Positions 3,320-6,485 of a DNA stretch of 34,711 bases are shown here, one piece after another. The notes under the pieces are model-generated. The model worked only from the letters and a program-made list of their open reading frames with translations. It was not told the origin of the DNA and did not search any database. Source of the stretch: Pelagibacteraceae bacterium AG-426-P20 (GTDB taxonomy: Bacteria > Pseudomonadota > Alphaproteobacteria > Pelagibacterales > Pelagibacteraceae). Numbering within the stretch: the first letter of the stretch is position 1; each line of letters starts with the position of its first letter. The DNA is taken from contig QCNX01000008.1 of assembly GCA_003210015.1 (NCBI GenBank), positions 1-34,711 of the forward strand, written 5' to 3'. Both the position numbers and the translations under genes were made by a program.

Positions 3320-3342
3320 AAGTTTCAAAACTCATGAAACTT
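3320..3342. promoter_or_regulatory. Inverted repeat upstream of TAXI gene (candidate operator)
   Basis: AAGTTTC and GAAACTT form a perfect 7-bp inverted repeat separated by 9 bases, about 70 bp before the TAXI start. Two overlapping TATGAT-like -10 candidates follow at about 3356-3367 without a good -35, so the repeat could be an activator or repressor site. The rest of the 3190-3408 intergenic region holds nothing else recognisable. Speculative. Confidence 0.3.
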
Positions 3343-3395
3343 TATTTGAATTATTTATGATTATGATGGTACCCTGAACTTTGATTAAATTAAAC

Positions 3396-3403
3396 AAGAG
3401 GAG
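3396..3403 (+). promoter_or_regulatory. Strong Shine-Dalgarno site of the TAXI gene
   Basis: AAGAGGAG ends 5 nt before the ATG at 3409. It is one of the few strong ribosome-binding sites in this window. High translation fits an abundant periplasmic binding protein, and it contrasts with the permease gene that follows, which has none. Confidence 0.75.
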
Positions 3404-3408
3404 AAAAA

Positions 3409-4416: not shown

Positions 4417-4430
4417 AAATATATAATTAA

Positions 4431-4460
4431 AACCCTGGATAAATTATCCAGGGTTTTTTT
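4431..4460 (+). terminator. Intrinsic terminator between TAXI receptor and TRAP permease
   Basis: AACCCTGGATAA and TTATCCAGGGTT form a perfect 12-bp inverted repeat with one central base; folding with a small loop leaves a GC-containing stem of about 10 bp. It is followed by seven T (4454-4460). The ATG of the permease begins at the next base. Partial read-through is probably how the permease is expressed. Confidence 0.9.
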
Positions 4461-6485
4461 ATGGAAAATTCAAAAGAAAATATTAATTTCGAGGACATAG
4501 AAAAGAAATATGATCCTCAATTGTCATTTAGAAAATTAGGCCCACAGCTTGAAATTTCCATAGCTGCAATCTTAGTTTCGATGTCAGTTTACCATTTCTG
4601 GGCATCTGGATTTGGTTTAGTAAGAGAAGTTTTACATAGAGGAATTCATATTTCTTATGTGGTTGGTCTAGTTTTTATTCTTTTTAGATGGAAAAGGGGA
4701 AATAATAATTTTGAAAAAGGTACATTCAACTTTTTAAATTTTCAGAATATCAATTTGTTAGATTATATCTTTGCTTTTTTGGCTGTGTCTACAGCTTTAT
4801 ATTTACCGCTATTACCTCCTGAAATCTTGGCTCAAAGAGTTGGTAATCCAGACACAATAGACGTATTTATGGGCTCAATATTAATAATTTTGACTCTTGA
4901 GGCAGCAAGAAGATCTGTTGGTCCTACACTTCCTCTTATAAGTATAATTTTTATTTTATTTGCAATATTTGGACCTCTTGCTCCAGGAGCTTTAAAACAT
5001 GGGGGAACTTCTTGGTTAGGTTTTGTAAATCATATCTATATAACTAATCAGGGTGTTTATGGAATAGCAGTTGGTGTAATGGCACAATACGTTTTTTTAT
5101 TTATACTTTTTGGAGTTTTAGCAACACGAGTAGGCTTAGGAAAATTATTTATTGATTTATCAATGTTAATTGCTGGAAAATTTTCTGGAGGTCCAGCTAA
5201 AGTTGCAATTTTTTCTTCAGCGTTTATGGGAACAATTTCTGGGTCATCTATTGCTAATACTGTTACAACTGGATCTTTAACAATACCAGCAATGAAAAAA
5301 GTAGGTTACCCATCACATTTTGCTGGAGCTGTTGAGGCCGCATCTTCTACAGGTGGACAGATTACTCCTCCAATTTTAGGCGCTGCAGCTTTTATTATGG
5401 TAGAGTATCTTGAAATTCCTTTAAGAGATATTTTAGCTGCCGCACTTATTCCAGCTTTATTACATTATTTTGGCATTTTTATTATGGTGCATCTTGAAGC
5501 AAAAAAACTTGGTTTAAGAGGTTTAAGACAAGATGAGATGCCTAATTTATTGACAGTGATGAAAGATAATTGGTTATCACTTTTGCCTTTAATAATTCTT
5601 GTATATTTTATTTTAAGCGGACGAACTCCAGACTTTGCGGCAATTTATGGTATCATTTCATGTATCACTATCGGTTTTATAAAACCAACTAACAGACTTA
5701 ATGTAAAAGATCTTTGGAATTGTTTAGCATCAGGAGCAAAGAACACTTTAGCAGTTGGTGCTGCAGCAATTTGTGTTGGAATAATTGTAGGTGTTGTTAC
5801 ATTAACTGGGGTTGGTTTCAGATTAGGATTTGTGGTTATTCAGACAGCTGGAGATATAAGTAATTTTTTTTCAAATATTTGGCCAATATCTTTTTTTTCA
5901 TTTGAGGATTTAAGATTATTTTTCTCATTAGTTTTAATAGCAATTTCTTGTATTATAATGGGTGCAGGAATTCCTACAACTGCCACTTATATTATTCTTG
6001 TTGCTGTTGCGGCTCCAGCACTTGCACAACTCGGTATCGAACCTCTTGTTGCACATTTTTTCGTTTTTTATTATGGAGTTTTAGCTGATATAACTCCTCC
6101 AGTTGCATTAGCCGCATACGCAGCTTCTGGAATCGCAAAATCAAATCCTTTTAAAACTGGAAACACTGCATTTAGGTTAGGTATTGCAAAAGCTTTAGTT
6201 CCGTTTGTATTTGTTTATTCACCCTCTATATTATTGATAACGGGTGAATTTCAAACAAACGAATTAATCCTTACTTTGACAGGAACTTTGATAGGTATTG
6301 CATTGATCGGAATTGCATTTTCTGGCTACTGGTTCCGACCACTTAAAAAATATGAGCAATTTGTAATTGGCAGTGGTTCTTTATTTTTTGTAGCACCAGG
6401 AACAGGCTCAATGATCATTGGATTACTGATAATTGTACCTATGTTTTTTTTACAATTTTCTAAAAGACTAACCCCCAGGCCCTAA
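4461..6485 (+). CDS. TRAP transporter fused permease (small plus large membrane subunits)
   Basis: 674-aa inner-membrane protein of the fused 4TM/12TM TRAP family that pairs with TAXI receptors. Many hydrophobic helices are visible; the central region carries the DctM-like signature (SSAFMGTISGSSIANTVTTG, then AVEAASSTGGQITPPILGAAAF) and a C-terminal counterpart (MGAGIPTTATYIILVAVAAP, then DITPPVALAAYAASG). It imports the TAXI-bound solute using a sodium or proton gradient. The ATG directly abuts the terminator U-tract, so there is no Shine-Dalgarno and the upstream 30 nt are a hairpin. No nearby in-frame ATG would be better, because the next lies in the first membrane helix; a TTG near residue 21 is possible. 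The 3' end overlaps the convergent thioesterase gene by 18 bp. Confidence 0.94.
   Translation: MENSKENINFEDIEKKYDPQLSFRKLGPQLEISIAAILVSMSVYHFWASGFGLVREVLHRGIHISYVVGLVFILFRWKRGNNNFEKGTFNFLNFQNINLLDYIFAFLAVSTALYLPLLPPEILAQRVGNPDTIDVFMGSILIILTLEAARRSVGPTLPLISIIFILFAIFGPLAPGALKHGGTSWLGFVNHIYITNQGVYGIAVGVMAQYVFLFILFGVLATRVGLGKLFIDLSMLIAGKFSGGPAKVAIFSSAFMGTISGSSIANTVTTGSLTIPAMKKVGYPSHFAGAVEAASSTGGQITPPILGAAAFIMVEYLEIPLRDILAAALIPALLHYFGIFIMVHLEAKKLGLRGLRQDEMPNLLTVMKDNWLSLLPLIILVYFILSGRTPDFAAIYGIISCITIGFIKPTNRLNVKDLWNCLASGAKNTLAVGAAAICVGIIVGVVTLTGVGFRLGFVVIQTAGDISNFFSNIWPISFFSFEDLRLFFSLVLIAISCIIMGAGIPTTATYIILVAVAAPALAQLGIEPLVAHFFVFYYGVLADITPPVALAAYAASGIAKSNPFKTGNTAFRLGIAKALVPFVFVYSPSILLITGEFQTNELILTLTGTLIGIALIGIAFSGYWFRPLKKYEQFVIGSGSLFFVAPGTGSMIIGLLIIVPMFFLQFSKRLTPRP

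Follow-up and report, generated by a model that had tools for sequence, protein, structure and literature searches.

What does a hairpin do when it stands between the receptor and permease genes of a transporter operon and its T-tract runs straight into the permease start codon? We met this arrangement in a window of 34,711 nucleotides, a Pelagibacter-like (SAR11) contig, one of 59 that make up a genome of about 0.9 Mb. The two genes encode a TAXI-type TRAP transporter, with a TAXI/NMT1-like receptor, or substrate-binding protein (SBP), beside a DctM-type permease (matches to PF16868 and PF06808, respectively; Table 1). Their intergenic region of 44 nt contains the hairpin, a T7 tract and then the ATG. 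The same junction is found in independent assemblies of close relatives and is therefore not an assembly artefact. It matches no curated Rfam RNA family or riboswitch; the only such matches in the window are two tRNAs. At its other end, the permease gene shares its last 18 nt (window positions 6468–6485) with the 3′ end of a convergent 4HBT thioesterase gene, and no terminator separates the two.

Table 1. Mapped parts of the TAXI receptor–permease locus, in window positions
Feature	Positions	Strand	Basis
Promoter-like site 5′ of the TAXI gene	3334..3361	+	ATGAAA-16-TATGAT, consensus match 9/12 only; not evidence of function
Shine-Dalgarno (SD) AAGAGGAGA of the TAXI receptor gene	3397..3405	+	Sequence; SD-like words in orthologues
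TAXI-family TRAP receptor (substrate-binding protein), 335 aa	3409..4416	+	NMT1_3 PF16868, E 1.4e-75
Intercistronic hairpin, 5′ arm AAAACCCTGGATA	4429..4441	+	Sequence, folding; pairing kept in relatives
Intercistronic hairpin, 3′ arm TATCCAGGGTTTT	4445..4457	+	Sequence, folding; pairing kept in relatives
T7 tract (U-tract), overlapping the stem foot	4454..4460	+	Sequence
TRAP permease, fused small and large subunits, 674 aa	4461..6485	+	DctM PF06808, E 5.9e-101

We examined the structure of the junction. Positions 4429–4463 read, in order, AAAACCCTGGATA, AAT, TATCCAGGGTTTT, TTT and ATG. The original prediction had described a perfect 12-bp inverted repeat, a T7 tract and an ATG as the next base; all of these elements are present, with the ATG at 4461 immediately after the T7, but the stem (4429–4457) comprises 13 bp around a 3-nt loop. 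Of the seven Ts, four belong to the stem, paired with an A4 run. The 90-nt junction folds with a predicted energy of −19.5 kcal/mol, compared to a shuffle mean of −10.1 (z = −3.9), and none of 200 shuffles folded as well. Among 434,711 bases from this and a sister genome, this is the only intergenic hairpin of its class that touches a same-strand start codon.

The junction is a stable hairpin between co-directional SBP and transporter genes, as in elements that produce SBP excess. In the window and its clade it also has the form of an intrinsic terminator, a GC-containing stem with an immediate U-run (T6–T7), a form that most other SAR11 orthologues lack. A simple terminator scan reports the hairpin on the minus strand only and misses it on the plus strand because half of the U-tract sits within the stem. 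A loose scan was uninformative (5 found versus 5.2 expected).

From the sequence, the true permease start is ATG 4461. No in-frame ATG, GTG or TTG occurs between the upstream stop (4440) and this codon, and a conserved E..KYDP motif of distant homologues corresponds to permease residues 13–20; the start is therefore placed here. Initiation at a later TTG, near residue 21, had been named as a finding that would count against the prediction. This start is ruled out by the conserved permease N-terminus, as the motif precedes the TTG.

The permease was also predicted to lack an SD and to rely on SD-independent initiation. The SD is indeed absent, but its absence is not a special trait of the permease: no more than 13% of the genes sampled from this genome carry AGGA, GGAG or GAGG ahead of the ATG (7% in shuffles), and 5-mer SDs are found in only 6%. 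Within the operon there is nonetheless a contrast, as the TAXI gene has an SD and the permease gene does not. Nearly every SAR11 orthologue has an SD-like GGAG/AGGG ahead of its TAXI ATG (AAGAGGAGA in the window). The 3′ tail of the 16S rRNA retains an intact CCUCC anti-SD. Searches with the exact usual tail patterns gave no match in SAR11, where the tail reads GGATTACCTCC and not GGATCACCTCC; in three loci (L219–L221) it is GGATTACCTCCTTTCT, the usual form being GGATCACCTCCTTTCT.

The hairpin is predicted to make the permease start unusually inaccessible. Unfolding of the region from −20 to +15 around the permease ATG has a modelled cost of 19.2 kcal/mol, the highest of 158 sampled genes (median 6.7; TAXI start 6.9), although the figure comes from a model and the stem may be opened by ribosomes or S1. 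Across SAR11 orthologues, the modelled cost at the permease start has a median of 21.3, compared to 10.3 in other bacteria. By this model, little initiation is expected if read-through mRNA keeps the hairpin folded. The spacing between the TAXI stop and the hairpin, 9–26 nt in SAR11, means that a terminating TAXI ribosome, judged by footprint size, should not hold the hairpin open and should leave it free to fold. Given that the permease start is the least accessible of the 158 in the model, it is plausible that the hairpin acts at both levels, on mRNA and on translation, as had been suggested.

We gathered orthologous junctions by searching whole genomes and scanning genome contigs. Each of the 63 SAR11 junctions compared (47 distinct) has a hairpin separating the TAXI stop from the permease start, contrary to the possibility, raised together with the original prediction, that the junction is not conserved in close relatives. 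The distance from hairpin to ATG is 0–7 nt, with a median of 4. In the window's clade (6 distinct junctions; relatives' permease identity 90–91%), every member has the hairpin, T6–T7 and directly the ATG. The main SAR11 clade lacks the T6–T7 tract and has a hairpin of different sequence (GCCCTAG...CTAGGGC), followed by ATTATT, ATTTTTT or ATTTTTTC and then ATG; most SAR11 orthologues read GGGC-ATTATT-ATG, without a good U-tract. The predicted abutment therefore extends to relatives in that a hairpin lies near the ATG throughout SAR11, but strict T7–ATG fusion is found only in the window's clade. Terminator read-through, which had been put forward as the basis of permease expression, is not borne out as a conserved function, as most SAR11 orthologues have no good U-tract. 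A second SAR11 TAXI–TRAP group carries a hairpin with T8–T9 in 7 of 7 readable loci, at 18–26 nt from the ATG.

What is conserved in this element is position and pairing rather than sequence. Across a set of 24 distinct SAR11 sequences, pairing is retained in 99.6% of pair cells, and 21 double changes occur. The covariation score is 0.345 versus 0.195 when shuffled (0 of 500 as high) and at most 0.09 when slid; with few evolutionary events behind it, this covariation is to be read as supporting evidence only. In non-SAR11 orthologues, mostly from alphaproteobacteria, the best stem is at least 8 bp in 45 of 45 cases and is unrelated in sequence. There the hairpin lies 18–271 nt from the start (median 36; 45 orthologues), and an SD-like word shortly precedes the start in 17 of the 45. 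The simplest history would involve an ancestral SBP–permease hairpin with a spacer and an SD. Genome streamlining in SAR11 would have deleted both, so that the hairpin came to abut the ATG, with other bacteria retaining spacer and SD.

To place the junction among others, we sampled 1,234,711 bases from four SAR11 genomes, taken as 20-kb stretches. Receptor genes were assigned by homology seeds, which replaced a signal-peptide heuristic that missed some receptors. An intergenic hairpin is present at 29 of 827 co-directional junctions, and 15 of these 29 follow receptor genes (DctP, SBP_bac_1, SBP_bac_3, OpuAC, NMT1 and TAXI), the others following, for example, rhodopsin, chaperonin and recA genes. 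Expressed per junction, hairpins occur at 15/16 receptor-to-next-gene junctions versus 14/811 others (Fisher p ~3e-23), a count in which the seeds come largely from hairpin-bearing junctions and so favour those families. Only five hairpins lie within 10 nt of a start codon, and all five are receptor-to-permease (2 DctP, 1 TAXI and 2 SBP_bac_3). Abutment is thus seen at 5/16 SBP junctions versus 0/811 others (p ~1e-9) and, when only hairpins are compared, at 5/15 SBP and 0/14 other junctions; it may be a passive outcome of compaction. One of the non-receptor hairpins, an 18-bp stem in a complete relative (G012; L232:10866-10953), lies between rhodopsin (PF01036) and ferredoxin (PF00111) genes, 22 nt from the start.

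Because most seeds derived from hairpin-bearing junctions, we added family-defined samples as a check on seed bias and counted hairpins in them by visual inspection of each junction. By this count 30 of 30 DctP loci carry a hairpin, 16 of them with the start within about 10 nt, and type-1 SBP_bac_3 loci have an abutting hairpin in 23 of 23. These 23 junctions, from SBP_bac_3 to an ABC permease (L189–L211), have an 8–12 bp hairpin, leave 2–8 nt between it and the permease ATG, and lack a U-tract. The rule has exceptions: a clear hairpin is absent at one SBP junction of the four-genome sample (L244) and at 5 of 5 readable type-2 SBP_bac_3 junctions (L213, L214 and L216–L218). At one locus (L243:17855-19902), a DctP receptor gene and a strong hairpin are followed by a glyoxalase/BphC-like gene instead of a permease. 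Overall, the junction in the window, first described as one compact element, is one instance of a general SAR11 arrangement, and both the conserved hairpin and its strong SBP-to-permease association fit the receptor excess that had been anticipated.

The abutting junctions differ in what follows the stem. SBP_bac_3 junctions (CCAATCTATATG) and some DctP junctions (CCTGAAAAAAAATG) have no U-tract, and some DctP junctions carry an A-tract in its place. Four DctP-to-DctQ junctions (L160–L163) have the hairpin CAGGCCCTC...GAGGGCCTG, then an A-run, then ATG; given the A-run, this hairpin cannot be a canonical intrinsic terminator on the coding strand. As several abutting junctions are without a U-tract, their common feature is the hairpin beside the AUG and not termination. 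Judged from these sequences, namely the poor U-tract of most SAR11 orthologues and the A-tract of some DctP junctions, termination cannot be the function common to all such junctions.

We consider it probable, at roughly 0.6, that the hairpin is an intercistronic receptor-excess (gene-dosage) element that works through partial termination and/or 3′-end protection, with permease translation probably damped. Transcription of the TAXI gene would mostly end at the hairpin, or the RNA would later be trimmed back to it, and receptor mRNA with a protected 3′ end would accumulate. A minority of transcripts would continue into the permease gene, and on this read-through RNA the stable hairpin, lying in the ribosome footprint of the permease AUG, would probably lower initiation. 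The outcome would be many receptors per permease, as expected of an oligotroph. For the window's clade, with its U6–U7 run, the chief step is likely to be partial intrinsic termination; for most other SAR11 orthologues, whose U-tract is poor, the effect would have to come from 3′-end protection together with translational damping. A broader proposal, which we offer only tentatively, is that start-codon-abutting hairpins in SAR11 could be a general, convergent dual-level device in TAXI, DctP and ABC systems that would terminate or protect the mRNA of the receptor, conceal the AUG of the permease and so hold the receptor:channel ratio high without transcription factors or an SD.

Other readings place the effect of the hairpin wholly on the mRNA. 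Were it a full intrinsic terminator, receptor and permease would be separate transcription units, with a permease promoter inside the TAXI gene or in the AT-rich stretch before the hairpin. The perfect stem and T7 of the window's clade are compatible with this, and the window contains a TATAAT at 4422–4427 from which a start near 4434 would yield an mRNA without the 5′ arm and with a free start codon. However, no sigma-70-like site scored in the TAXI–permease intergenic region, the TATAAT has no −35-like hexamer at the proper distance and is lost even in close relatives, and on these grounds a promoter in the junction was rejected. With a good U-tract also missing from most SAR11 orthologues, and with the gene pair kept across orthologues as a single operon would be, separate units seem to us quite improbable. 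We regard as rather unlikely a purely mRNA-stability element of the malE–malF or puf type, in which there is no termination, an RNase cuts the permease region and 3′–5′ decay halts at the hairpin. The poor U-tracts of most SAR11 TAXI junctions, of SBP_bac_3 junctions and of A-tract DctP junctions would be accounted for, and E. coli SBP genes offer a precedent (PMC5927463), but a U-tract stands right after the stem in the window's clade, in the second TAXI group, in several DctP groups and in most non-SAR11 orthologues.

The remaining readings concern the start codon. The 3′ arm could be a masked ribosome-binding site, its AGGG acting as an SD such that folding and ribosome binding are mutually exclusive. 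This AGGG is invariant among SAR11 TAXI junctions, always at an SD-like spacing of 6–9 nt from the AUG, and the CCUCC anti-SD is intact. Yet AGGG is absent from other abutting junctions (SBP_bac_3 and GGCC-type DctP), so that a concealed SD in the 3′ arm cannot hold for all of them; outgroups with a separate SD also have GGG adjoining the U-tract, and retention of a G-rich arm is explained by C-to-T changes being tolerated (as G–U pairs) and G-to-A changes not. We therefore find a masked SD hard to credit even for the TAXI junctions. Somewhat unlikely, in our judgement, is that the abutment is functionless, the hairpin being an ordinary inherited terminator that adjoins the AUG only through spacer loss in SAR11. 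Intergenic regions in SAR11 have a median length of 3 nt (PMC2704228), and both this and the genome-wide scarcity of SDs are in keeping with such passive loss. Against it, abutting hairpins in our sample are confined to SBP–permease junctions, and the hairpin-to-ATG distance is tight (0–7 nt) where the stop-to-hairpin distance varies (9–26 nt).

A receptor-excess element has counterparts in other bacteria. In the ABC importers of Clostridia, the ratio is set by internal terminators that follow SBP genes (PMC9045158). As in cellulolytic Clostridia, the SAR11 stem-loop comes immediately after an SBP gene within a transporter operon and has a long stem, and the U-tract is partly paired with a 5′ A-run and often has few Us (PMC9045158). 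SBP excess was the role proposed in Clostridia, where termination efficiencies were measured in ABC operons (PMC9045158); the SAR11 case is known here from sequence. Unlike the clostridial elements, it covers both TRAP and ABC operons and has the permease AUG directly behind the hairpin, without an SD. Passages of PMC5927463 describe 3′ hairpins that protect malE and other E. coli SBP mRNAs, and the malE–malF hairpin resembles ours in lying between SBP and channel genes with the SBP as the favoured product. In those same passages, decay and not start-codon blockage is shown for malE–malF, and abutment of hairpin and start is not mentioned. The puf operon of Rhodobacter capsulatus, as cited in PMC5927463, similarly has an alphaproteobacterial intercistronic hairpin that sets stoichiometry as a decay stop. 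Unlike the SAR11 junction, puf comprises photosynthesis genes. To our knowledge, its stem-loop has no U-tract–AUG fusion.

The element is thus known in kind from malE–malF and clostridial ABC operons, and the start-codon abutment is a SAR11 variant. We found no prior description in the literature on SAR11 hairpins, terminators and transporters. An earlier SAR11 RNA survey was directed at intergenic regions longer than 100 bp (PMC2704228), and junctions of about 40–60 nt would therefore have escaped it. As far as the literature shows, the near-systematic receptor–permease hairpins of SAR11, and the recurrence of abutment in unrelated transporter families, appear to be new. SAR11 bacteria rank with the most numerous cells of the ocean, and uptake models attribute their nanomolar affinities to a high binding protein:transporter ratio (PMC8168909). 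If our reading is true, a hairpin hard-wired at nearly every receptor–permease junction would be a genetic device that sets this receptor:transporter ratio.
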